Below are positions 25,185 through 42,961 of a stretch of DNA of 43,301 nt, piece after piece. This stretch comes from a virus. Numbering within the stretch: the stretch's first letter is position 1; each line of letters opens with the position of its first letter. The stretch covers positions 1-43,301 of IMG/VR virus record IMGVR_UViG_3300033064_000945; one strand, 5' to 3'. Both the position numbers and the translations under genes were made by a program. The notes under the pieces were generated by a model that saw only the letters and a program-made list of their open reading frames with translations, searched no databases and was not told the DNA's origin.

Positions 25185-27731
25185 CTACCTCCTTGTTTCC
25201 ATCGCTGCTCCTGCCAGATCGTCTGTCGTCGTGCTTGATGCTGTCTCTATGCCGGATACGCAGAGGGCGTATGTTGCGAGTGCGGACGCCCCGTGCGAGT
25301 TGTGGACCACTACCCCTTCTGCTACGAAGTTGTTGTACCGCGGCACATGCATGTCGTACACGGCTTCACGGCTCCTAAGTCGCGAGACAGTGACGACCTT
25401 GTGGTTGCGCGGAGACGATTCTACTAGTGTGCAGTCGTCTCTGTGGGTCCACTTCTCAACGGGTTTGGTTCGCCGCCTATGCGAGTTGGCTTTGGCATTG
25501 CAGTTCGCGCAACAATACAACCGCTTCCAGTTTGCCCTCATCGTCCCGCCGCACTCCCTACACGGACGCAGTGTTTCGGATGCCTTCCAGCTTCTGATGC
25601 TATCCGCGCCTGTCTGGGCTCGCATTTCTCGCGTCCAGTTCGCAGGGTCGTGGTTCCATCCGGGCCTGCGCTTCACCACTGTCTTTTTTGCGCTGTTGTC
25701 CTTTGGTCTGGCCGCAGGGTGGTTGCAGTAAGCATTTCTAGCCAACTTTGCCAACCTCTCGGGCTCGCTGGCATGCGCCGATATATGCTCCGCAATACTT
25801 ATCATTGCCAGATTGGACGGCTCGTTATTGTGCTTCGAGCCATCCTCGTGATGAATGATCTTCCCGCGCTGCAGGGGGCCAATGCAGCGGGCGTACACAT
25901 ACTTGTGCTCTGGGGCAAGACTACCATCATTCAGGTGGATGTGAATGTACCCAGAGTCTATGCGCTCGTAGAAGGGCATTAGACTGTCTCCGGGCGCCAA
26001 AGCCCAAGCCGGCTTCCATCCCTCTGCTCTCAGCATGAACTTATGGTCGGCGGTGCATCGGATGGTTGCCCCATTGTCCAGCATAACCTCTACAACCTCT
26101 GCACAGTCAGCCGATTTCCAAACGCGCTGCGCCTGCGCTGGGACGATACGGTGCTCCACGATGCTGTAGCACCATACCCACGGCTGAGTGCCGACAAGCG
26201 TTCCGATCTCGCGCCAGCCGTTGAGTGTCCGTATATGTGTGTTGCTTGTCATGCACGCCCAGTTATGAAGCGGTGAGGTCTTCCAGACGCCGTTGTCTGA
26301 GTCCCATTCGTGCTGGTAGGATTCGAGGGAGGGGATGCCCACAGGTTGCTTGGCGTGCTCGCGTGTACAGTTGCTTTCATCGAATCGGCATTTCGGCAGT
26401 AGCTTGCGGACCTGTTCGATTCCGTCATCCAAGGATACCACAGGACCAGTGGTGAAGGGAATACCAAAGTCCATCAAGGCTGTCTCTAGTCGGGTCTTGC
26501 CTGAGCCCCACTCATGGACGGCTATATCGGCGGGTGCGTAGAAGTGGCGGTACTTGTATTTCTTCTTGTCCAGCTCCTTGCTGTAGTAGCCCAACCCCTC
26601 GCCTGAGTGCTCCAGGTAGTCGATGATGCGGTGCTCGCCCTGGATCTGCTGGATGAACCAGATGGCGGTGGAGTCCCTGTGCCCGATATCCCATGCCGTG
26701 TCCACCGGGTATCTCTTGTCGTAGGGCACCGCGCAGATCCTGCCCTCACGATAGGCGGCATACATCTGCTGCTTGTAGTAGGCGCCCTCGATGGCGCTCC
26801 TAAACGCCTCCTCGATGGTCGAGGGGTGCTGCTGTAGCATGTTGGCGCCGAGGACGCTCTCGGTGGCCACGTACCATGCCATCTGCTCTGGCGTAAACTT
26901 CACGCCCGTCTTGTCCTTGAGGTCACCGAAATATTCCTTCATGCGGCCCGTCATGGTCACGTCGCCCCGGGGCACCGCGTATGGCGCGTGGCGGTACCAT
27001 GGCTCGAAGAACAGTTGGAAGTGCAGGTCGCTCATCTTCACGTTCTCGCTGTCATTCTTCATGGCCTGCTGGACTAGATCGTAGTAGACGCCCTGCGGTC
27101 CTTCTGCGGTGCTCTCGATGAAGATATGGCCCTTCTGATGGACGGTGGGCAGAGAGCCCGTGATGATCTCTCTGGCCCTGGCCGGCTGGGTTACAGATAT
27201 TCTGGCGAGCTCAGAAACGTGAAGGAAGCGAGTTGTCGCACTCCTGAACGAAGTCGCCACCCTGAGCGAGGAGTTGTGCTTGAAGCGGATCTCGCCAGCC
27301 TCGTTCTTCTCGGTCTTCACTCGGTTCTTGATCCAAGGCGGCAATTGATCGTACACAAACCGGATCTTGTCCTGAAAGATCGCTTGGGCCGCCGGCATGG
27401 TGTGCGCGATGATGCCTGCCCGGAAGTTGCTCGTCCACGCCGCCATGTCAAAACCTAGCAAATCCACGAACGTAGTCATGCCCAGTTGGCGTGCTTTGCA
27501 TAGAATATTTCTGTAACGCCGGTTTTCGAAGAGGAACTTCTGCACCGGCCGCATCCTGAACGGCACCGCCAACCCGTCCTCGTCGATGACGGTGTAGAGG
27601 TTGTTGAGCCTCCACGTCTGGTCCTTGAGGAACGGGGCGATCAGCAAGCACTCGTCGGCCGTCCACTCACGGGCTGGCTTCTGCTGCATCACCTGAAGGC
27701 TTGGCTTCGGTGCCAGGATTAGGGGTGGCAT
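25185..27731 (-). CDS. terL: terminase large subunit interrupted by an intein (848 aa precursor, 529 aa spliced)
   Basis: The DNA-packaging motor. Start ATG 27731 has GAGGAG 8 bases upstream and overlaps the preceding zinc gene; a later ATG (27689) is possible. Residues 79-87 (KARQLGMTT) are the Walker A variant of terminases; FLHVSELA is the Walker B region; DTAWDIGHRDSTAIW near 370 is the first nuclease acidic motif. A 319-residue intein (residues 493-811) begins with Cys and ends HN before Ser. The remaining C-extein SHGASALATYALCV matches the third nuclease motif region, though its usual Asp is not obvious. Terminase small subunit lies upstream. Confidence 0.9.
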   Translation of the reverse strand: MPPLILAPKPSLQVMQQKPAREWTADECLLIAPFLKDQTWRLNNLYTVIDEDGLAVPFRMRPVQKFLFENRRYRNILCKARQLGMTTFVDLLGFDMAAWTSNFRAGIIAHTMPAAQAIFQDKIRFVYDQLPPWIKNRVKTEKNEAGEIRFKHNSSLRVATSFRSATTRFLHVSELARISVTQPARAREIITGSLPTVHQKGHIFIESTAEGPQGVYYDLVQQAMKNDSENVKMSDLHFQLFFEPWYRHAPYAVPRGDVTMTGRMKEYFGDLKDKTGVKFTPEQMAWYVATESVLGANMLQQHPSTIEEAFRSAIEGAYYKQQMYAAYREGRICAVPYDKRYPVDTAWDIGHRDSTAIWFIQQIQGEHRIIDYLEHSGEGLGYYSKELDKKKYKYRHFYAPADIAVHEWGSGKTRLETALMDFGIPFTTGPVVSLDDGIEQVRKLLPKCRFDESNCTREHAKQPVGIPSLESYQHEWDSDNGVWKTSPLHNWACMTSNTHIRTLNGWREIGTLVGTQPWVWCYSIVEHRIVPAQAQRVWKSADCAEVVEVMLDNGATIRCTADHKFMLRAEGWKPAWALAPGDSLMPFYERIDSGYIHIHLNDGSLAPEHKYVYARCIGPLQRGKIIHHEDGSKHNNEPSNLAMISIAEHISAHASEPERLAKLARNAYCNHPAARPKDNSAKKTVVKRRPGWNHDPANWTREMRAQTGADSIRSWKASETLRPCRECGGTMRANWKRLYCCANCNAKANSHRRRTKPVEKWTHRDDCTLVESSPRNHKVVTVSRLRSREAVYDMHVPRYNNFVAEGVVVHNSHGASALATYALCVSGIETASSTTTDDLAGAAMETRR
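25299..26255 (-). mobile_element. mini-sized HNH-containing intein in terL (319 aa)
   Basis: Block A: Cys1 then THIRTLNGWREIG. Block B: TADHKF, containing the T-x-x-H. Blocks F/G: VYDMHVPRYNNFVAEGVVVHN with penultimate His, terminal Asn, then Ser+1. All catalytic splicing residues are present, so it should splice. Between B and F sits an HNH homing domain (HHEDGSKHNNEPSNLAMISI, then EHISAH) and a four-Cys zinc finger (CRECGG...CCANC). Inserted close to the terminase nuclease motif, a known intein hot spot. Confidence 0.85.
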
Positions 27732-28050
27732 CTGTGGGCTCCTCGGGTGTGTCGTCGCGATACTGGACGTTCCATAGGGCCTTCCTCTTGCAGCATCGGC
27801 ATGTCCCCCTGAAGGTTGCCGCGAAGACTGGTGCGTCCGGTCCAGTTTGACCCGGCCTGTGCTCACTCGGCACTTCGTCCAGCGTCACTGGTGCCGCGCA
27901 GGTAGGGCACTGGAAGCAATGAGCAGCGGCATGCCTCACCGTCTGCGCTGGCTTCCTGGGCTTGCGCTCGATCCTGCGCGTGGCTGCGCCACCCGCGAAC
28001 AGTCGCAAGGCTTTGTACCACCGCGCCCTCTTCGATGTTCTTACTGACAT
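27667..28050 (-). CDS. zinc-ribbon protein upstream of terL (127 aa)
   Basis: A very basic N-terminus (SKRARWYKALRLFAGGAATR) precedes a CPTC ... CRCC zinc ribbon (residues 48-88) and an acidic Pro/Glu tail. Overlaps terL by 65 bases. May bind DNA or RNA in the packaging module; no named family. Confidence 0.65.
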   Translation of the reverse strand: MSVRTSKRARWYKALRLFAGGAATRRIERKPRKPAQTVRHAAAHCFQCPTCAAPVTLDEVPSEHRPGQTGPDAPVFAATFRGTCRCCKRKALWNVQYRDDTPEEPTDATPNPGTEAKPSGDAAEASP

Positions 28051-30160: not shown

Positions 30161-30990
30161 GATTGCTCCCCCTCTGGCCGGTAGCCGTTGGTGTTGAGGT
30201 AGGCGGCGACGATGTCGCGCTTGCCGTGGGGTAACGAGGTGTTCGCGGCGCACGGCTCATTGGCTCGGGAAATGTACCAGTCCGGACCAACCCCGATCAC
30301 CGTCCGCACATTAGCCCCGCGTCTAAACGGAGCCCCGGCCACGATCTGCTCGGGACGGATCGGCTCGGGCGGGGCCACTTGGCGGACGTAGCGGAGGCGG
30401 CTATTATGGCCCACCGGGTCCCCCGCTTGGATTGTGTTGCGAAATATGCCCGGTTCGTCCTCGTCCTCGTACTTGTCCTCAACGCGCAGCACTTCCTTGG
30501 GGTCGGCCAACTCCCGCCACAGCCCGTCCAGCCCCGGCAGCTTAACCGCTTCAGTCTCGGCGGGCTTCCTCGCGGCGGCTATGCGCTCGTCCCATTCGGC
30601 GGGGGGGAAGGGGAGCCAGGAGCGAGCGCTGAAAGCCCATGTGGCAGCACACCGCCCAATGTGCTGATTTGCCGTGGAGCCGTCCCGGCATACGGCGTCT
30701 GTGCATGTGTCGTCTGTGACACGAAAGAACCGCACAAAGGAGGGGATATGTTTCTCTCCACCCACCCACTCAAAGCACCGCACCACCGGCTCGGGCTTCG
30801 CTTGCGCGGTTCGCAGTACCAGCGCGATCACATCATCAATGTACGCATATTGGAATTGCTCCCTCAGGTGGTACAGGTTGTGTAGGAATTTGTCGGTCTC
30901 TTTCATCTCTATGTCCTCCGGTATTACGAATGAATCGCATAGGTTGTAAATATGGGTCCACCGCTCCATGTTGTGGCAGTAGGGCTTCAT
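30157..30990 (-). CDS. hypothetical protein (277 aa)
   Basis: Start ATG 30990 overlaps the SSB stop (TAATG). Mixed alpha/beta, with several Cys (VTDDTCTDAVCRDGSTANQH) and many Trp/Asp. The final 20 residues resemble a short conserved end (HGKRDIVAAYLNTNGYRPEG). No signal, nucleotide-binding or catalytic motif seen. Sits just downstream of SSB in the replication-side operon. Confidence 0.6.
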   Translation of the reverse strand: MKPYCHNMERWTHIYNLCDSFVIPEDIEMKETDKFLHNLYHLREQFQYAYIDDVIALVLRTAQAKPEPVVRCFEWVGGEKHIPSFVRFFRVTDDTCTDAVCRDGSTANQHIGRCAATWAFSARSWLPFPPAEWDERIAAARKPAETEAVKLPGLDGLWRELADPKEVLRVEDKYEDEDEPGIFRNTIQAGDPVGHNSRLRYVRQVAPPEPIRPEQIVAGAPFRRGANVRTVIGVGPDWYISRANEPCAANTSLPHGKRDIVAAYLNTNGYRPEGEQS

Positions 30991-31418
30991 TAGAATGGCA
31001 GCTCCGACTCTGTATCATCCTGTGCCTGCTGCTCGGCTTCGTTGCGCGTGTCCGGGTGGCGGGTGGCTACGGGGCCTCCTTGCGCGTCCCGGTCCTGCTC
31101 GCCGCGGGGCTTTCCAAGGAACTGCACTCGTCGGGCCACCACGCTGATCTTACTCCGCTTCTGCCCGTCCTTCTCCCAGGTGTCCAGCTTCAGCCGGCCC
31201 TCGACCAGTACGGGGGAGCCTTTGTCTAAAAACTCTCCGCACGTTTCGGCCTGTTTGTCCCACACCGTCACGCTGACGAAGCAGGTGTCCTCAGTGTCCT
31301 TGAATTTGGTGGTGACCGCCAAACCCAACTCGCATACCGCTTTCCCTGCTGGAGTGAAACGAACCTCGGGCGATCGCGTCAGATTTCCTATCAACTGGAC
31401 GTTATTCATGCTGCTCAT
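30990..31418 (-). CDS. ssb: single-stranded DNA-binding protein (142 aa)
   Basis: OB-fold pattern of bacterial/phage SSB: MNNVQLIGNLTRSPEVRFTP near the N-terminus, FVSVTVWDKQAETCGEFLDK, then SPVLVEGRLKLDTWEKDGQK. The C-terminal tip DDTESELPF matches the acidic SSB tail that recruits partner proteins. Start ATG 31418 overlaps the TGA of the HNH gene (ATGA). It coats single strands during replication and recombination, working with the ERF and exonuclease pair. Confidence 0.9.
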   Translation of the reverse strand: MSSMNNVQLIGNLTRSPEVRFTPAGKAVCELGLAVTTKFKDTEDTCFVSVTVWDKQAETCGEFLDKGSPVLVEGRLKLDTWEKDGQKRSKISVVARRVQFLGKPRGEQDRDAQGGPVATRHPDTRNEAEQQAQDDTESELPF

Positions 31419-32029
31419 TTTCCTACCCCCCATAGCGAACGCTTTGCAGCGCACGACCTACTACACGTTATCCTGATGTCCGCCTGAAATTTCCTGGCCA
31501 TAAACGCTTGGCCACATACCTTGCAGATCAACTCAACACGAGTGCTCTTTCTGCGGTGCGCTCGCGTGTGATCGCTTCTCCGCATAACAAGCAGGTTGGA
31601 TATGTCATTATTGGTCCTGTTGCCGTCACGGTGATGAATGACCTCGATGGGTTCTAAGGGTCTGCCCAGCGCCTTTTCGACGACGAGAATGTGCTCTCTG
31701 ATATACCCCATCTTCCTTCCTTTGATGGACCGGCATCGAGGGTGGGATGCATCGTGCCGAACGTCAACATAGCCGCTCGAGAGGCGGCACCCACCTTTCC
31801 ACGCGCCATGCTTTGGCCCCGAGTAGCGTGTCTGGATCATCAACTTCGCGGCTGCTTCCGATATGCGGTGATGATCATGCAGCCCCACGAACCCTGTCTT
31901 ATAGCGTTGGCTCTTGATGGCGTCTCGCGACCTACCGAGAGCCTCGCCAATCACGTCGTCAGGAACGCCAGCCTTATACATTTTGCCGAGTCGTTTCGCG
32001 TCTGCGTCGGTCCATTTTCTTGCTTTCAT
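31415..32029 (-). CDS. HNH homing endonuclease with N-terminal HTH-like domain (204 aa)
   Basis: N-terminal 45 residues (WTDADAKRLGKMYKAGVPDD) resemble a SANT/helix-turn-helix, the middle holds EHILVVEKALGRPLEPIEVI, HHRDGNRTNNDISNLLVMRR, SDHTRAHRR: the classical phage HNH core (HH, N, H). A CxxC finger pair (CKVCGQ ... CSRSC) ends it. Free-standing HNH endonucleases of this size are mobile genes. Its stop overlaps the SSB start, so it may have inserted between a promoter and ssb. Confidence 0.85.
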   Translation of the reverse strand: MKARKWTDADAKRLGKMYKAGVPDDVIGEALGRSRDAIKSQRYKTGFVGLHDHHRISEAAAKLMIQTRYSGPKHGAWKGGCRLSSGYVDVRHDASHPRCRSIKGRKMGYIREHILVVEKALGRPLEPIEVIHHRDGNRTNNDISNLLVMRRSDHTRAHRRKSTRVELICKVCGQAFMARKFQADIRITCSRSCAAKRSLWGVGK

Positions 32030-34614: not shown

Positions 34615-34793
34615 GGATTATCCTCCCGTGGGTAGAAGTTGTCGCACGTCATCTTTCGCCCTACAGCTGGTCCCCACCTGCCGCGCCGTCCACACAGACA
34701 CCTAATCCGGTTCGACCATTTGTCGGGGCGGCTGCGATGGCAACAGTCCCAGCATGTCATCTCGCCCTTCCTTGCCTTGCGGTACTGCTTCAT
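34611..34793 (-). CDS. Cys-rich microprotein (60 aa)
   Basis: CWDCCHRS ... RCLCGRR ... MTCDNF: at least six Cys in 38 residues, likely one or two zinc sites, basic. ATGA-coupled at both ends. Confidence 0.55.
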   Translation of the reverse strand: MKQYRKARKGEMTCWDCCHRSRPDKWSNRIRCLCGRRGRWGPAVGRKMTCDNFYPREDNP

Positions 34794-35467
34794 GGCTCAT
34801 CCTCCATTACCGCCGTTATGAACGCCGCCGCATGTTTTCCCATCCATTCGGTGTAGACTGGAGGGATCGCTTGCGACAATTCCGCGCCTGTCATCCAGTC
34901 AATTCTCATCGCCTCGCGCCGTTGTTCCGTGGTGAAGTCTTGTGTGTTCACCGTGCGCCTGCGGTCGCGACCATGCCCACCATACACGCCGATTACACGC
35001 GGCTTCATCCGATGGCGGCACGGCGGAACCAGTACGTATCCCCACGACAATTCAAAGAGACGGTGCCGCCACAATTCTGCATCTCCCGACCCGAGGCCGA
35101 ACATCGTCCCGCAGAGGATAACCGGAGAGACGAGCGGAGCGCCTTCCACGTTCTCAATGATGTACGGTTTATCCGATTCCTTTAGGAGTTTCCGTGTCGG
35201 CCCGATCAGATCCTTGTGCTTTTTCGCATTCCACATATGCTTCAGATCGCAGTGGGCTTGGCACGGCGGGCTTGCGTGTATCAGGTCGTACTCATGGCCG
35301 TGCTCGCGCAGGAACACCAGCGCGTCCCCCTCGATGAATCTGTGCGGGTTGTGTGGTTGCGGGCGGTTGTCAACCCCCGTCACGTCAAACCCGGCACGGC
35401 GATATCCTTCACCAGCCCCACCGGCCCCACAGAACAGGTCAAGACATCTAAGACCAGCATTCCTCAC
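34790..35467 (-). CDS. short C5 cytosine DNA methyltransferase-like protein (225 aa, GTG start)
   Basis: GTG 35467 overlaps the upstream TGA. Motif I DLFCGAGGAGEGYRRAGFDV, motif IV ASPPCQ with catalytic Cys69, motif VI IENVEG, a RHRLFEL box like motif VIII and QAIPPVYTEWMG at motif X. It transfers a methyl group from S-adenosylmethionine to cytosine C5. At 225 residues the target-recognition region is nearly absent, as in compact phage enzymes of this class. Possibly protects phage DNA from restriction. A long second copy of the fold lies at 41.2-42.6 kb. Confidence 0.85.
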   Translation of the reverse strand: MRNAGLRCLDLFCGAGGAGEGYRRAGFDVTGVDNRPQPHNPHRFIEGDALVFLREHGHEYDLIHASPPCQAHCDLKHMWNAKKHKDLIGPTRKLLKESDKPYIIENVEGAPLVSPVILCGTMFGLGSGDAELWRHRLFELSWGYVLVPPCRHRMKPRVIGVYGGHGRDRRRTVNTQDFTTEQRREAMRIDWMTGAELSQAIPPVYTEWMGKHAAAFITAVMEDEP

Positions 35468-36716: not shown

Positions 36717-36893
36717 TTACTCGCCGCTTGCGATTTGCTCCGTGCGGATGTCAATGAGTTCCTGCAGGAGTCTGTTTTTGGCGAGTGCGACCAGCCGCAG
36801 GTGGTCGCCCCCCTCGGGCTCGGTCTCCAGTTCTGCCTGCTTCTTGGTTATAAACACGCGCCTGTATAGTTCGGTCAGCATGGCATCGCTCAT
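36717..36893 (-). CDS. hypothetical small helical protein (58 aa)
   Basis: Start ATG 36893 overlaps the NinG stop (ATGA); the longer in-frame extension is inside that gene. MSDAMLTELYRRVFITKKQA is helical; no motif. Confidence 0.55.
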   Translation of the reverse strand: MSDAMLTELYRRVFITKKQAELETEPEGGDHLRLVALAKNRLLQELIDIRTEQIASGE

Positions 36894-37441
36894 GGTGTTC
36901 CTCCGTATGGTTTGCGTGTCCGCATCATCGTCTCGATTCGGTCCATCCACAGCTTCATCATCTCGCGCAGTTCGTGCTCCGTGAACTGGCGCTGCTCCTT
37001 GTTCTTGGCGCGGATCTCGGCCATCACTTCCTTGCCGTAGGTCTTCTCCATGAATTCAGTGTAAGCTGGACCCTCACCCTGACCCCAAAGATTGCACGTT
37101 CGACATTGCCCATGCACACCCCTCTCGTCGAAGAGTACGGCATTCCTGCGCCCCGTCAGCCAGTGACCTGCCTGGAGCGCCTTAAAGTCGTAAGGACGCC
37201 CACAGGTCACACAGCGCCCTCGTCCGGGGTCACCTGTGGCCTGTAGGCAGTCACGCATCCGTATCATCCTGCTGAAGATCCTCCAGGCTTCAGCCTTGGC
37301 AGCCTTCACCGTTCCTGCGCGGGGGGTCTTCCGTAGCTTGGTCTTGGCTTTGAGCGGGGTCTTCCTCCGAATGGTCGAGTTGCGGACCATGCCGCTCTTC
37401 GCCTTCAGCTTCGCGAACGCTTTCTCAGACATCTTCAGCAT
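36890..37441 (-). CDS. ninG: NinG-like recombination nuclease (183 aa)
   Basis: Basic N-terminus (KTPLKAKTKLRKTPRAG) then CVTCGRPYDFKALQAGHWLT with CxxC at 77-80 and His93, and VHGQCRTCNLWGQGEGPAYT with His110, Cys113 and Cys116. This is the NinG/Rap family: HNH-related, structure-selective, acts on recombination intermediates in lambda. Fits the ERF, exonuclease and SSB set in this phage. Another start at the third codon (37432) is possible. Confidence 0.85.
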   Translation of the reverse strand: MLKMSEKAFAKLKAKSGMVRNSTIRRKTPLKAKTKLRKTPRAGTVKAAKAEAWRIFSRMIRMRDCLQATGDPGRGRCVTCGRPYDFKALQAGHWLTGRRNAVLFDERGVHGQCRTCNLWGQGEGPAYTEFMEKTYGKEVMAEIRAKNKEQRQFTEHELREMMKLWMDRIETMMRTRKPYGGTP

Positions 37442-37719
37442 CGTTGTCCCAAGTGCGAGTCGGGGATATAGATCCAGTAATCGTATCCCCGTTGTTCAGC
37501 GAAATGGTGACTCTTCACATCGTGGAGTTTCCGACCGTACACGACGCACCGAAGAAACCCTTTTGGGACGCGGCATTTGGCCTGCTCGCGGACAAGTATT
37601 TCTGCAACTTCCCACATTTCGCAACCGGCAGTGCGCTGTCTGTCATGCAGGCAATAGTCTCCGATCACCGCATGGGGGTCGAATCCGGCCTTCTTGGGTT
37701 TCTTCTTTGTTTTCTTCAT
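37435..37719 (-). CDS. hypothetical protein (94 aa)
   Basis: Basic start (MKKTKKKPKKAGFDPHAV) and several Cys/His (YCLHDRQRTAGCEMWEVAEI). Begins one base after the SMC-like gene stop. No family. Confidence 0.5.
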   Translation of the reverse strand: MKKTKKKPKKAGFDPHAVIGDYCLHDRQRTAGCEMWEVAEILVREQAKCRVPKGFLRCVVYGRKLHDVKSHHFAEQRGYDYWIYIPDSHLGQRC

Positions 37720-37720
37720 C

Positions 37721-38155
37721 CTACCCTACGTCGATCACGTTCCATGATCCTTCGTCTGCGAGCACCGCCCCACCGTGGCATGTCAGCACGATCACCTGCG
37801 CGTCGACATGTGCCAGACGCTCGAGCATGCGGTCCATGTTGTCCGTGTCGACTTCCGCCGCCTCGATGATCACCGGAGCCTTGGGGTTGATGGCGTACCC
37901 GAATGCCCCATCGAACTGTGATCGCTCTCCCCCGCTCAGTGTGTTGCGACTGACAGCCTTCCTGTCAGGGCGTATCCATGATATGTGCAGCTTGCGTCCG
38001 TCGTCTTCCATCCCCAGTGCGCCTTCGGGCAGGATCTCGGAGGATCGTGTCGCCAGCGTCTGGACCGCATCGTTGACCATTCCGGTGACCACTTCCTTGG
38101 CCTGGGCCAGATCATCTGCCGCAACTGCCAAATGGTTGTTGTTTTCACGATTCAT
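37721..38155 (-). CDS. C-terminal half of an SMC/Rad50/RecN-like ATPase (144 aa), apparently split
   Basis: Contains the ABC signature NTLSGGERSQFDGAFGYAI, then a Walker B-like PVIIEAAEVDTDNMDRMLER and a D-loop/H-loop QVIVLTCHGGA. A full Rad50/SMC-type ATPase also needs Walker A, which is absent from this frame and from the neighbouring ORFs. The start shown (ATG 38155) has no good ribosome site and lies inside the end of an HNH endonuclease gene. This looks like the 3' part of a gene interrupted by that element; N-terminal half not found in this window. Confidence 0.7.
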   Translation of the reverse strand: MNRENNNHLAVAADDLAQAKEVVTGMVNDAVQTLATRSSEILPEGALGMEDDGRKLHISWIRPDRKAVSRNTLSGGERSQFDGAFGYAINPKAPVIIEAAEVDTDNMDRMLERLAHVDAQVIVLTCHGGAVLADEGSWNVIDVG

Positions 38156-38720
38156 CAGGGAAATTCGCCCTTGCATGCTGCCCGTGGAGCCGCCGCGCTG
38201 CCGCATCATAGACTCGTGCCGCCTCTTCGGCAGACGAGTAACAGCCCAAGTATATCCGTTTGCTATGATCTGAGATCCTTGCCATCCACGGCCTCCCGCA
38301 ACAGCCGTCGTCATGGCGTATCCCGATAAACCCAGACGGGTTTGGTCTTGGCGCTCCCCTTTGGGTGTTCGTGCCGCACGTAACGACCCGCATGTTTCCG
38401 CGGCGGTTGTCTAATCCGTTACCATTGATGTGATCTACGACCATAGGCCGGGGTGGGCACTCTCCGATAATCTCGTGATGCATCCGGCGCTTGCGGACCT
38501 TGCAGTGCTTCCTGCCTCCCCCGAGGTAGATGCCTCGGTGGGCATACCAGATGCTCGCACTGGTCATATCAACACACCAGCGGTGGAGTGCAATCAAGTC
38601 GAAGTCATCGGGAGATATCAGTGCCGTCTGTCCCTTGGTCAACGGGATGACGCAGTATGGCCCTTCGTTGTCCTCGTAGATCCTGCGTGTGGCGTGGCGG
38701 TTGTAGGCGGTATTCGGCAT
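38145..38720 (-). CDS. HNH-AP2 homing endonuclease (191 aa)
   Basis: Start ATG 38720 with GGAGG 6 bases upstream. Layout: TKGQTALISPDDFDLIALHR, then MHHEIIGECPP, VVDHINGNGLDNRRGNMRVV (HNH core with DHxNGxxLDNR), then an AP2 domain WMARISDHSKRIYLGCYSS ... AARVYDAAARRLHGQHAR. This is a mobile HNH-AP2 homing endonuclease that cuts intronless or elementless alleles. It overlaps the ATPase fragment by 11 bases. Confidence 0.9.
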   Translation of the reverse strand: MPNTAYNRHATRRIYEDNEGPYCVIPLTKGQTALISPDDFDLIALHRWCVDMTSASIWYAHRGIYLGGGRKHCKVRKRRMHHEIIGECPPRPMVVDHINGNGLDNRRGNMRVVTCGTNTQRGAPRPNPSGFIGIRHDDGCCGRPWMARISDHSKRIYLGCYSSAEEAARVYDAAARRLHGQHARANFPDES

Positions 38721-38739
38721 GGTGTTCCTCCAGAAGTAA

Positions 38740-38831
38740 GCGGACCCCTCCGGGTGTGACAACCAGTGCCCGGTGACGGGCATGAGGTTCCCTCGGGGGT
38801 CCGCAGTTCTTCTAGGCATACTGGTTGTCAC
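38740..38831 (-). ncRNA. pseudoknot-capable structured leader
   Basis: GCGGACCCC (38740-38748) pairs perfectly with GGGGTCCGC (38796-38804), 9 bp; GTGACAACCAGT (38756-38767) pairs perfectly with ACTGGTTGTCAC (38820-38831), 12 bp, and its 3' arm lies outside the first stem, which makes a pseudoknot. Two further hairpins sit between: GCCCG/CGGGC at 38768-38781 and GAGG/CCTC at 38784-38794. The 92-base element ends 19 bases before the HNH-AP2 start. Confidence 0.55.
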
Positions 38832-38837
38832 TCTTTC

Positions 38838-38865
38838 ACCGTAGCCGATCCGTCCTGAAAGTCAA
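38838..38865 (-). promoter_or_regulatory. candidate promoter for the HNH-AP2 gene
   Basis: Minus strand TTGACT (38865-38860), 16-base spacer, TACGGT (38843-38838). It overlaps the stop of the gene to the right; -10 is weak. Confidence 0.35.
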
Positions 38866-39125
38866 TCACAATTGACAGGCGTCCTCACGCTCACGAAGCA
38901 CTCGTATGCGGCGTTGCAGTCTGGCTGTCCCCGCAGGGGTCGTTTAAAGGCGGCGTGCTTGCATACCTCCGCTACCCACTCGGGTGCCTCAACGGCTATC
39001 CCTGGCCTGATCGCGAGCATGCGGCCATTAAGCGAAACGTATATGTTTCTCTGCCGCTTCCGTGGTTTCCCGTCCTTGCGAAGCTGCGGTGGGAATATCA
39101 ATCGGACTGTCTTAGGCTTGCTCAT
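38862..39125 (-). CDS. hypothetical protein (87 aa)
   Basis: Start ATG 39125 with GAGGTAGACG upstream. Basic and beta-like (VRLIFPPQLRKDGKPRKRQR, RNIYVSLNGRMLAIRP) with Cys near the end. No family; its stop overlaps a promoter-like element. Confidence 0.5.
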   Translation of the reverse strand: MSKPKTVRLIFPPQLRKDGKPRKRQRNIYVSLNGRMLAIRPGIAVEAPEWVAEVCKHAAFKRPLRGQPDCNAAYECFVSVRTPVNCD

Positions 39126-39184
39126 CGTCTACCTCTATTATGGCTACCCACTCAGGGTGAAGGCTATACAATTCGTCAAGCGTA

Positions 39185-39265
39185 GATGAGGGACCCGGAT
39201 TCTCACCGGGACTTCCTGCAACGTAGGCGGTCGCTGCTGGCGTGCCGTTTACACCATCCCTCATC
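39185..39265 (-). tRNA. tRNA-like cloverleaf with non-canonical anticodon and T loop
   Basis: Minus strand: 9-bp perfect terminal stem (GATGAGGGA / TCCCTCATC), a D arm GGTG/CGCC with loop TAAACGGCA (A14-, GG- and A21-like), an anticodon-position arm GCAGCG/CGTTGC with an 8-base loop, and a T arm CCCGG/CCGGG with a 7-base loop TGAGAAT. Body length is about 77 bases. No TTC in the T loop, no T33, no CCA and the acceptor is long, so it is not a standard tRNA. No anticodon can be assigned. Confidence 0.45.
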
Positions 39266-39703: not shown

Positions 39704-40333
39704 TCAACTCCATTCTGCCACGATACCTCGTAGCTTTTCCGTTGCCGCTTCGACCTCAGCGGAGAAGATAGGGACATGCTCCTCAAGGGCCGCGATGATC
39801 TTGGCGTCACGCTCGACGGGCCAGACGACGCTCGGAATCCCATGGTCGTCAGTGTAGAGCACGAAGTCCCACTTCTCCCGCTCGCACACCCACATCTCGC
39901 CCTGAATCTGCACCAGGTACTCAGTCGGCACCTTCCCACCCAGCAACTTCTCAACCATACCTGTCCGCAGGGGACACTTGATCTCGATGCCTCCCGTCAC
40001 TGTAAGGCCGTCAGGAGAGGCACCCCACCGCTTACTCTCATCCGCCCAGCAGAAGCCGACCTCTTCCACCTTGTTGCCCGTAACCATCTCGTACCACCCT
40101 CGAGCCAAGGGCTCCAGATTGGTGCCACGCTCCATGGCATACGTCTCGTAGCTCATCTGGATGGTGCGAGCCACGCGCTCCCCTGCCAGTTCGTGGATAT
40201 ATCGCTGCCTGGATGCCGCTTTACAGGGCTCTCCCCTGCTCGTCACGATATCGCTGAACCGTGAGGCTGTAGGAATGCCCAGACGTGCGCTGTGCCACTC
40301 CTCGCTGTTCTGCTTGCAGTGTAGAGCGATCAC
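39704..40333 (-). CDS. YqaJ-type viral recombinase / alkaline exonuclease (209 aa, GTG start)
   Basis: GTG 40333 overlaps the ERF stop (GTGA). Starts ALHCKQNSEEWHSARLGI, TASRFSDI; centre ERGTNLEPLARGWYEMVTGN; catalytic ASPDGL (Asp108), GGIEIKC (Glu117, Lys119); then PTEYLVQIQGEMWVC. These are the YqaJ/lambda exonuclease motifs. It degrades one strand of duplex DNA from ends to give 3' single strands for the annealing protein next to it. Length is normal. Confidence 0.9.
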   Translation of the reverse strand: MIALHCKQNSEEWHSARLGIPTASRFSDIVTSRGEPCKAASRQRYIHELAGERVARTIQMSYETYAMERGTNLEPLARGWYEMVTGNKVEEVGFCWADESKRWGASPDGLTVTGGIEIKCPLRTGMVEKLLGGKVPTEYLVQIQGEMWVCEREKWDFVLYTDDHGIPSVVWPVERDAKIIAALEEHVPIFSAEVEAATEKLRGIVAEWS

Positions 40334-41124
40334 GCCTTGCCTCCCTTCTTGGCCGCCCTGCCGCGCTTCAGTTTGTTGAGGGTACGCAGGGCGGTGTCGA
40401 AGAGGTCGGCAGGGAACTCTGCGACGGCAGAGCAGTCTCCGAACTTCAGGAGATTCGGCAGGTAGTCAAGTTCGCCGGCCAGTTTGCCGAGCGTCTCGGC
40501 TTCTTCTGCGCTCACGACCTTAGTACCCGCGGCGTTTCCGTCGTCGTCCTCATCGCCAGTGACGACGTTCAGTGCGCTGCAAATGCAGTACCGCTTGGCG
40601 TAGGTCGTGGCTGACCCCATCTGCTGGGCCTTGTTCTGGCTGCGGATCAACTCTGGGAGGGGCGCGTCGTACCGCAACTCTACCAGATGCCCGTCACGGT
40701 GCGTCAGCATCCCCGCCACGCTACAGATGCCGTCTGCGAGCGTGCAAGCCTGCCATGAGATAGTCAGGCCGTGCTTCTTCATCAGGGGACGGATCATTCC
40801 CCATATCCGGTCAAGGCGGGCATACGCCTTCCCGTTGGCATCATCGCCCTTCTCGATGATAGGGCACTCGCCCTGGAAGTCGGACATCGCTCGAGCAAAG
40901 GACTTCCGCGCCTCGTCCGCATCCCACTCCCTCCGAACGGCCAGAACCGCCCGTAGCTTTTCGACATCGATCTCAGGATCCCTCGCGAGTGCGGCAATCA
41001 TCTCCGCATTCGTCTGTCCTGTGGGTTCTTCTCCTGCGCTGGCGTCAGGCAGTGTCAGTTGTGCGCTCTCGTTCATGGCGTCTCCCTTTGCTGCTATCAG
41101 TGTCAGTTGTGCGCTCTCGTTCAT
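40330..41124 (-). CDS. ERF-family single-strand annealing protein (264 aa)
   Basis: Motifs: ARAMSDFQGECPIIEK, RIWGMIRPLMKKHGLTISWQ, MLTHRDGHLVELRYDAPLP, and the hallmark NKAQQMGSATTYAKRYCICS ending in GDEDDDGN. This is the ERF family of recombinases that anneal single strands. Two start codons (41124 and 41076), each with an AAAGGGAG site, result from a 48-base tandem duplication, so the product may have 264 or 248 residues. Works with the YqaJ exonuclease downstream. Confidence 0.9.
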   Translation of the reverse strand: MNESAQLTLIAAKGDAMNESAQLTLPDASAGEEPTGQTNAEMIAALARDPEIDVEKLRAVLAVRREWDADEARKSFARAMSDFQGECPIIEKGDDANGKAYARLDRIWGMIRPLMKKHGLTISWQACTLADGICSVAGMLTHRDGHLVELRYDAPLPELIRSQNKAQQMGSATTYAKRYCICSALNVVTGDEDDDGNAAGTKVVSAEEAETLGKLAGELDYLPNLLKFGDCSAVAEFPADLFDTALRTLNKLKRGRAAKKGGKA

Positions 41125-41248
41125 GGCGTCTCCCTTTGCTGCTATTCCGAATTGCCTCGATCTTTGAGTTGAGCGTGCGGCGGCAGGTGAGGCATACACC
41201 GTCCCACGTCTGTTTGCATCCTTTCGTTTCGCAGTCGATGCAGGTCAT
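41045..41248 (-). CDS. zinc-knuckle microprotein overlapping the ERF start (67 aa)
   Basis: CIDCETKGCKQTWDGVCLTC gives several Cys with CxxC spacing. The C-terminal half is encoded by the same 48-base duplication in another frame, so it repeats SSKGRRHERERTTDT twice. ATG 41248 overlaps the methyltransferase stop (ATGA). Confidence 0.6.
   Translation of the reverse strand: MTCIDCETKGCKQTWDGVCLTCRRTLNSKIEAIRNSSKGRRHERERTTDTDSSKGRRHERERTTDTA
41050..41145. repeat. perfect 48-base tandem duplication covering a ribosome site and start codon
   Basis: Copies 41050-41097 and 41098-41145 are identical as read. Each holds AAAGGGAG, ATG and the first nine codons of ERF, and the C-terminal end of the zinc gene in the other frame. 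Confidence 0.85.
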
Positions 41249-42612
41249 GTTGCGAGTCCCTCGATGACCGCCTCGACCATCTCAATCCTTCTGCCGATCC
41301 ATCGCATCACGTTTGCCGCCATGCTGTTGCCAAGAGCCTTGTAGCGGGGACCATCTGGGCAGTTCTTGGCGGGTTTCTTGCGCCACGCGATGCGCGTGTA
41401 GTCGTCTGGGAATCCCTGAAGCCTCTCGCACTCAACTGGAGTAAGGCGGCGAACGGTCATGCCAACTTGCGCGGCTGCGTATCCGCTTCCGGGCTTTCCT
41501 CCAGCACAAGATAGTTGTGGGGCGGCCGCCGATGTCCTGAGTTCACCGCGCTGGTTTTCAGCAAACGCCACCGCCCCTACCCCGATTCCATCTCTGCCCC
41601 CGTTGGGGGTCAGCACGGCGTTTGCGGTTCCATCCTGCCGTGTCTCAAGGTTGCGGCCATCACCCCGACCTCGCACGGCCAGGGTCAGGGGAACACCGCG
41701 ACCAGTGCCGTCCTCGCTTGCGTCATGCTCGGCGCGTAGGGTGTGGGCGAGTCCACCCGGAATCATATAGCCCGCTGCCGCATGGTCCGCACTGTTCGTC
41801 CACCCGCCACTCTTGGCGCATGACTTCAGTGTGCCGCATGTCTCGGGGATCAGCGTGGCGTCTTTGCCGTGCCCCGATCGCGCATTGTGACCCGCCTCAT
41901 GGCTGCTGCCGCACATAAGGGGTGATGACACAGGAACTATGGTGTCGCAGTCCTCGCGGTGTCTGAGGTTGCCACCGCTTCTAAGGCAATGTGCAACGCT
42001 TCTGGTAGTTCTTTTCCGCGCTTCTCTGCTCGGCGCAGGATTCCCTTGCAAGCTCTGGCGCTCAAATAGTACCGCTGCGGCAGGTCGCCAGTCTCCAAGA
42101 TGTCCGACAACGAACACACGCCGCCTTCGCTGTGGAACGGCACGCTCGTGCCCGTCCACTCGGATGTACTGAGCGTCAAGGATTCGGTAGGCCCACCCAT
42201 ACCCGAGTTGCGCCAACCCTCCGAGCATGGAACCAAAGTCCCGTCCTTCTCCACTCGACAGGACGCCGGGGACGTTCTCCCATACCAGCCAGCGGGGCCG
42301 ATACTTTGCAGCAACCGCAAGATAGGTAAGCATGAGGTTGCCACGAGGGTCATCCATTCCCGCTCTGAGTCCAGCGACGGAGAAGGACTGGCAAGGTGTT
42401 CCTCCGCAAATAACGTCAATTCCTTCATGTTTCGGCCACTCCTTGAATTTGGTCATATCTCCGTAGTTTGGAACGTCGGGGTAGTGGTGTCTCGGCACTT
42501 CACACGGGAACGGCTCAATCTCAGACTGAAACGCGCACTGCCATCCAAGAGGATGCCACGCCATTTCAGGGGCACCGATGCCGCTACATACTGTTGCGAA
42601 TGTCGGCGTCAC
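41245..42612 (-). CDS. C5 cytosine DNA methyltransferase (455 aa, GTG start)
   Basis: GTG 42612 overlaps the upstream TGA, with GGAGGGGGG before it. Motif I FATVCSGIGAPEMAWHPLGW, motif IV GGTPCQSFSVAG with catalytic Cys74, motif VI VWENVPGVL, motif VIII VPQRRRRVFVVG, motif IX RRLTPVECERLQGFPDDYT, motif X YKALGNSMAANVMRWIG. All motifs are intact. A long variable region (roughly residues 220-390) is the target-recognition domain. Methylates cytosine in duplex phage DNA, probably against host restriction. Confidence 0.92.
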   Translation of the reverse strand: MTPTFATVCSGIGAPEMAWHPLGWQCAFQSEIEPFPCEVPRHHYPDVPNYGDMTKFKEWPKHEGIDVICGGTPCQSFSVAGLRAGMDDPRGNLMLTYLAVAAKYRPRWLVWENVPGVLSSGEGRDFGSMLGGLAQLGYGWAYRILDAQYIRVDGHERAVPQRRRRVFVVGHLGDWRPAAAVLFERQSLQGNPAPSREARKRTTRSVAHCLRSGGNLRHREDCDTIVPVSSPLMCGSSHEAGHNARSGHGKDATLIPETCGTLKSCAKSGGWTNSADHAAAGYMIPGGLAHTLRAEHDASEDGTGRGVPLTLAVRGRGDGRNLETRQDGTANAVLTPNGGRDGIGVGAVAFAENQRGELRTSAAAPQLSCAGGKPGSGYAAAQVGMTVRRLTPVECERLQGFPDDYTRIAWRKKPAKNCPDGPRYKALGNSMAANVMRWIGRRIEMVEAVIEGLAT

Positions 42613-42764
42613 GCATCCCCCCTCCAGATTGCTCCGAACGCTGCGACCAGCATCATGTACCAGAACGCCGTGGACACGATCATGGTCAGGGCGATGACCA
42701 GCTTGGAGTCCTTCTGGGTGGGATGCGGTCTGGGTAGCGGGATCTTGTAGAGGGTGGGTATCAT
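42609..42764 (-). CDS. small membrane protein (51 aa)
   Basis: Start ATG 42764 overlaps the upstream TGA (ATGA). Pro-rich basic N-terminus (PTLYKIPLPRPHPTQKDSKL), then one span (VIALTMIVSTAFWYMMLVAA). Function unknown. Confidence 0.6.
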   Translation of the reverse strand: MIPTLYKIPLPRPHPTQKDSKLVIALTMIVSTAFWYMMLVAAFGAIWRGDA

Positions 42765-42961
42765 TGCCTTGACCACCGCTTCGCGTAGATGTCGCACGCA
42801 ATCCACGTCGTTATCCACCCGACCCACGGCCGCCAAGTAGTCCACGCAAATGGGCGCGGCATGATTACGCGCCATGCGAGCGCCAGAAGGGTCGCCGCAA
42901 GTATCACGCATCCGAACCACCGCACGAGTAATATCAACCTCTCGTTTCGCTCGTTCATCAT
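42761..42961 (-). CDS. small two-span membrane protein (66 aa)
   Basis: Starts at either of two adjacent ATGs (42961, 42958) that overlap the upstream stop. Spans RLILLVRWFGCVILAATLLA and WVGWITTWIACDI. Basic end. Holin-like size, no support beyond that. Confidence 0.55.
   Translation of the reverse strand: MMNERNERLILLVRWFGCVILAATLLALAWRVIMPRPFAWTTWRPWVGWITTWIACDIYAKRWSRQ

Follow-up and report, generated by a model that had tools for sequence, protein, structure and literature searches.

An apparently orphaned C-terminal half of a split Rad50/SMC-type ATPase beside an HNH-AP2 endonuclease gene in a viral genome record

The DNA considered here, hereafter called the window, is the whole of an IMG/VR virus record of 43,301 bases. 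It is linear and without end repeats, so that it may be a genome fragment and a gene discussed below, that of the N-terminal half of an ATPase (N-half), could sit outside it. The locus of interest lies on the minus strand, where a 144-aa ORF for the putative C-terminal half (C-half) of a split Rad50/SMC-type ATPase (37721..38155) follows a gene for a free-standing HNH-AP2 homing endonuclease (38145..38720). Downstream of the C-half are a 94-aa ORF (37435-37719) and a NinG/Rap-like gene recognized by profiles (36890..37441). The upstream side of the endonuclease gene is occupied by an 87-aa ORF (38862..39125), two small ORFs and, assigned by domain and PHROG profiles, a YqaJ exonuclease (39704-40333) and an Erf annealing protein (40330-41199); the NinG/Rap-like gene, the 87-aa ORF and the YqaJ and Erf genes are likewise on the minus strand. 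The 87-aa ORF, with a weak match to phrog_15239 (function unknown), stands at the place expected for the N-half gene and is unrelated to it, and the Erf-YqaJ module (39704..41199) is a recombination module unlike that of the split-ATPase relatives described below. Besides, two DNA cytosine methyltransferase-like genes are present (34790-35467 and 41245-42801, minus strand), the latter being a long ORF of 518 aa in which the methylase match is broken in two, possibly by an insert.

The C-half ORF starts at an ATG (38153-38155), and a 37-residue helix precedes an LSGGER signature, which is followed by a Walker B-like strand (VIIEAAEVD) and an H-loop (TCH). No credible Walker A was found in any window ORF of at least 60 aa, this one included, and the fragment has no CxxC zinc hook. 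The first-pass annotation had described a 144-residue fragment with signature, Walker B-like and H-loop motifs but no Walker A, which the ORF call and motif reading confirm. Across an alignment of 17 sequences the three motifs are invariant or nearly so, with the Walker B-like strand of the family ending in EAAE or EGAE instead of DE. Used as a single sequence, the C-half gave no credible match in Pfam, PHROGs, NCBIfam, PDB sequences, a tblastn search of phages or a viral 8-mer scan. A profile of the family C-halves matches SMC3 (5e-10), bacterial Smc and, at 3e-5 to 1e-4, the C-halves of Rad50; the corresponding family model, of which the window sequence is a member, scores the window C-half at 200 bits. 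An AlphaFold model (pLDDT 88.3) shows a long helix and then a C-lobe, for which Foldseek returned the Rad50 C-half 1ii8_B as best match (E 7.7e-6); of the 36 PDB chains with E <= 0.001, almost every one is of SMC/Rad50 type. Judged by family profile and predicted fold, the ORF clearly resembles the C-terminal lobe of a Rad50/SMC-type ATPase, and the earlier description as a severed half of such an enzyme is right. As retron ATPases occur among the Foldseek matches, an ATPase-HNH pair of the Septu or retron kind was also considered and rejected, with no PADLOC match for the fragment and an HNH protein of homing type.

Alignment with the family places the beginning of the window C-half at approximately position 47 of the family C-half, so that the first ~47 codons are absent, together with about half of the coiled-coil helix; the truncation point is approximate because the alignment is loose over the first coiled-coil residues. 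The reading frame is uninterrupted, all catalytic motifs are present and the codon-position GC is like that of neighbouring genes. Decay, if any, is consequently recent, and these properties are as expected for a gene which is still in use or was only recently orphaned. By itself, the fragment would most likely be incapable of ATP hydrolysis.

Relatives were reached by a degenerate gapped DNA pattern, which gave four matches and with them the first true relative (L028), whose C-half is 38% identical to that of the window (E 1e-20) and follows a distinct ORF that contains Walker A. The remaining pattern matches were discarded, one having arisen by chance (L027) and two lacking a fitting ORF (L029, L030), and an apparent N-half in L020 and L021 turned out to be an unrelated coiled-coil ORF. 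Alignment-based scans then yielded 18 viral loci (L053-L070), the C-half of L053 being 37.8% identical to the window C-half over 135 aa (E 2e-19). In 16 of these loci (L053-L068) the N-half and the C-half follow each other as separate ORFs, while L069 and L070 encode a single fused protein of ~730-745 aa. Beyond the viral loci, split forms are carried by Solidesulfovibrio alcoholivorans, where the genes of L055 recur, by a Desulfovibrionaceae genome and by another two genomes of the order. The junctions between the halves are varied, most of them having overlapping stop and start codons: eight loci have ATGA, three ATGGATAG/ATGGATAA and one TAATG, another shows a longer overlap, and in the last three the halves lie 1-190 nt apart. 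Since the stop codons differ as well (TGA, TAG or TAA), one frameshift site cannot explain the split. The widest gap, a 190-nt low-complexity GGCAAGGC/GGCACGGC-like repeat, separates the halves of L061 (4811-5000), whereas the genes touch in other members. All 18 loci, the 16 split and the two fused, feature a conserved ~440-aa gene upstream of the ATPase and a UvrD/Rep-like helicase downstream. The ~440-aa protein matches solely phrog_32428, of unknown function; from our own reading we presume a resemblance to an annealase. The helicase of these loci also resembles GajB in PADLOC. The operon of ~440-aa protein, split or fused Rad50-like ATPase and helicase is probably an undescribed recombination module.

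The halves divide the ATPase in a consistent manner. The glycines and lysine of Walker A are invariant in 16/16 N-halves, and so is a CxxC located 13-25 aa before the stop codon, while the C-half begins with the returning helix of the coiled coil; the split is therefore located at the molecule's tip, where Rad50 carries its zinc hook. The structure model of one relative's N-half shows an N-lobe, a pair of coiled-coil helices and, besides a disordered linker, a helix-CxxC-helix hairpin, and it matches SMC/Rad50 heads with overall TM-scores that are low on account of the flexible arms. The two products may pair via the coiled coil into one ABC head, and the CxxC may bind zinc. Searches of the L028 halves against PHROGs returned two profiles of phage proteins with unknown function, phrog_32642 for the N-half (4.9e-18) and phrog_1499 for both halves, along with the SbcC-like phrog_77 for the C-half (1.5e-5). 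In most relatives nothing lies between the halves, hence an endonuclease need not have caused the split. When relatives were searched for an intact ATPase without the endonuclease, as had been suggested, the outcome was twofold, with two fused genes (L069, L070) and 16 split ones having no endonuclease between the halves. A further association of HNH genes with this cassette was noted in L028 (728-1315) and L035 (6399-6980), where NUMOD4-type HNH genes, assigned by profile in L028 and by similar sequence in L035, lie directly after the C-half and before the helicase; these genes are unrelated to HNH-AP2 and represent a second, independent association.

Neither the N-half nor the ~440-aa gene nor the helicase, whether downstream of the C-half or anywhere else in the window, was detected by profile HMM and tblastn, and for the N-half this includes searches with stop codons read through. 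An N-half profile built without L067 and L068 finds the divergent N-halves of these two loci at 1e-43 and 1e-50, so a comparable N-half in the window would have been seen. The statement of the first-pass annotation that no N-terminal half is visible in the window is therefore borne out. Its proposal of a split gene working in two parts holds for the family insofar as 16 viral loci carry two adjacent genes whose products may act jointly; for the phage of the window the other part is absent from the 43.3-kb record. A viral scan queried with the window revealed no relative closer than L067 and L068, and among the close relatives found none displays the state before the event proposed below.

The HNH-AP2 gene was characterized by Pfam, PHROG and homologue alignment. 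It matches HNH_3 with 28.1 bits, above the cut-off of 24.8, and phrog_99 (HNH endonuclease) at 1.7e-29, while the AP2 domain, at 21.7 bits and E 2.4e-4, is below its curated Pfam cut-off of 33.3. Its likely start is the ATG at 38720 behind a Shine-Dalgarno sequence GGAGGA read directly from the minus strand (38726..38731), giving a product of 191 aa. An in-frame GTG at 38831, which had been taken as the start in the first-pass annotation, is an alternative that falls within the 12-bp stem described below; its homologues begin to align at roughly residue 38-60 of the longer reading. The HNH stop (38145-38147) and the ATPase start (38153-38155) are arranged such that the two ORFs overlap by 11 nt. 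A complete HNH-AP2 gene directly upstream of, and overlapping, the ATPase is hence present as previously claimed, with the reservation that AP2 is sub-threshold. Direct repeats of at least 8 nt do not flank the gene, and no C-half was present in the records of HNH relatives or YqaJ relatives. Another HNH_3 homing-type gene (31415-32029, minus strand) runs into the start of the SSB gene (30990-31454), overlapping it and bringing the HNH elements of this phage to at least three. An HNH domain is also found inside an in-frame intein (residues 563-856; Pfam Intein_splicing 1.5e-19) of the 893-aa terminase large subunit ORF (25185-27866, minus strand); this intein ends VVVHN|S and is followed by a C-extein of only ~40 residues.

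In the leader of the endonuclease gene, on the minus strand, a stem search identified a perfect 12-bp stem (arms 38756-38767/38820-38831) crossing a perfect 9-bp stem (arms 38740-38748/38796-38804). The two crossing perfect stems had been reported with exactly these lengths. None of 1500 dinucleotide shuffles shows a crossing pair as long, and the pair is unique in the window, where the next best totals 17 bp. In the predicted fold, an outer 7-bp helix (38730-38736/38809-38815) lengthens the 9-bp stem as far as the Shine-Dalgarno sequence, pairing the first two G of GGAGGA. Both the fold with the 12-bp stem and that with the 9-bp stem and outer helix are far more stable than shuffled sequences (z -3.9 and -4.2); the two may coexist in a pseudoknot or be the mutually exclusive states of a switch. 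Pseudoknots of the HDV-like and group I kinds were tried and set aside, as neither the topology known for them nor Rfam fitted. Of the earlier alternatives, a group I-like intron or a structured regulator, the former finds no Rfam match, and the stems are better explained as a leader which probably controls the translation of a free-standing endonuclease. Leaders sequestering the ribosome binding site are known for the homing endonucleases I-TevI, segB and mobE, the last being an HNH gene (PMC2988022). The same leader might instead be a structured RNA in its own right, for instance a switch between mutually exclusive hairpins or a hitherto undescribed class, doing more than holding back HNH translation. 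The stability of each fold and the single occurrence of the crossing stems in the window speak for it; nevertheless, no homologous leader was found among phages or upstream of 16 HNH homologues, and we regard it as rather improbable, though compatible with the explanation of the ATPase fragment given next.

With moderate confidence, we interpret the window C-half as a remnant at a recombination junction, left from an ATPase which in this family is naturally encoded by two genes, with the HNH-AP2 gene sitting at the break, and not as part of an intron-interrupted gene. The family ATPase is encoded by two adjacent genes. Walker A, one arm of a short coiled coil and, at the tip, a hook-like CxxC come from the N-half; the C-half supplies the returning helix together with the signature, Walker B and H-loop motifs, and the two products would pair through the coiled coil into a single ABC head. 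The sequenced genome of the window phage lacks the N-half gene, the helicase next to the cassette and the initial ~47 codons of the C-half. At the break stands the HNH-AP2 gene with its own Shine-Dalgarno sequence and a structured leader probably restraining its translation. We infer that the front part of the cassette was replaced by recombination, either at this gene or by way of it, which left the C-half orphaned, an Erf-YqaJ module thereby meeting an old ATPase cassette at a junction which the endonuclease may have marked or made. Homing endonuclease genes are known to sit at boundaries of phage gene exchange (PMC10448857).

Among the competing explanations, a catalytic intron with its 5' exon lost, as entertained in the first-pass annotation, would have a group I or II intron encoding the HNH-AP2 endonuclease interrupt the ATPase, with the crossing stems as its core. 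Rfam gave no intron match, at the gathering threshold across the whole window or in a permissive scan of 37600-39200, the record has no 5' exon or other ATPase sequence ahead of the HNH gene, and the overlap of HNH stop and ATPase start leaves no room for a 3' intron part. The order of the stems and the placement of hairpins do not fit group I P3/P7 either, the endonuclease has its own Shine-Dalgarno sequence, and the relatives are split without an endonuclease between the halves. Even though the stems adjoin an endonuclease gene and HNH homing endonucleases are found in phage group I introns (PMC3428280), an intron of either group is very unlikely here.

Less improbable, if still unlikely, is that the C-half is still a working subunit of an ATPase in two parts, with the partner encoded in an unassembled portion of the genome and translation of the C-half coupled to the HNH gene. 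Intact frame and motifs, the two-gene nature of the family, a linear record without end repeats and a C-half start overlapping the HNH stop, which suits translational coupling, would all agree with this. However, in 16/16 split relatives the halves stand next to each other between a common pair of flanking genes, neither of which was found in the window, and about half of the coiled-coil helix is missing. A more elaborate version, in which a natively two-subunit Rad50-like family is cut after the CxxC hook, its arms joined by coiled coil and head, and the shortened C-subunit of the window works with an N-subunit encoded elsewhere at a dose set by reinitiation behind the endonuclease under the pseudoknot leader, appears doubtful to us. 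Similarly doubtful is a derivation from a once-fused ATPase of ~750 aa that was cut by insertion of HNH-AP2 and later lost its 5' piece. The fused cousins L069 and L070 share the flanking genes, and a tree grouping the window with the fused forms is not rejected (AU p = 0.42). Yet the best tree sets the window, on a long branch, among the split forms and nearest to L067, its C-half has an LPEG motif and short loops as the split members do, and its identity to fused forms (26.8%) is lower than that to split forms (up to 34%).

Several known systems resemble parts of this arrangement. The phage HNH-AP2 ("IPA-HNH") endonucleases have HNH and AP2 in the same order and are likewise found next to genes of DNA metabolism where modules meet (PMC10448857), whereas the window gene touches an ATPase gene at the latter's truncated end and has a sub-threshold AP2 domain in Pfam. 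Homing endonucleases regulated by a hairpin at the ribosome binding site feature one hairpin, in contrast to the two crossing stems of the window leader. In phage Aeh1, mobE splits nrdA. It is comparable in that an HNH gene lies beside a split gene and the leader structure, in the window a predicted one, reaches the Shine-Dalgarno sequence (PMC2988022), but in the window the upstream half is absent, and the ATPase family is split without an endonuclease. The window may illustrate how a split-ATPase cassette breaks down beside a homing endonuclease gene. The PHROG profiles matching the L028 halves (phrog_32642, phrog_1499 and phrog_77), none of which matches the window C-half, cover 427-967 residues and hence look like single-gene forms. 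No description of a two-gene Rad50-like family was found among the open papers searched, although one may exist. Known Rad50 and SMC proteins consist of one long chain folded back on itself, and a conserved two-chain family parting at the hook is therefore an unusual architecture. With Rad50/SbcC and T4 gp46-type proteins, the window ORF and its relatives have in common the fold of the C-lobe, the LSGG signature and the H-loop, as well as N-halves, in the relatives, with Walker A, coiled coil and CxxC. The split family differs from Rad50/SbcC in its two genes with a break just after CxxC, a Walker B-like strand ending in EAAE/EGAE and not DE, coiled-coil arms of only ~85 residues and a UvrD-like helicase as neighbour, no SbcD/Mre11 gene having been noticed among the ORFs beside the relatives. 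Such a family makes it testable whether Rad50 needs the covalent link via the tip of its coiled coil, or whether coiled coil, head and metal suffice.
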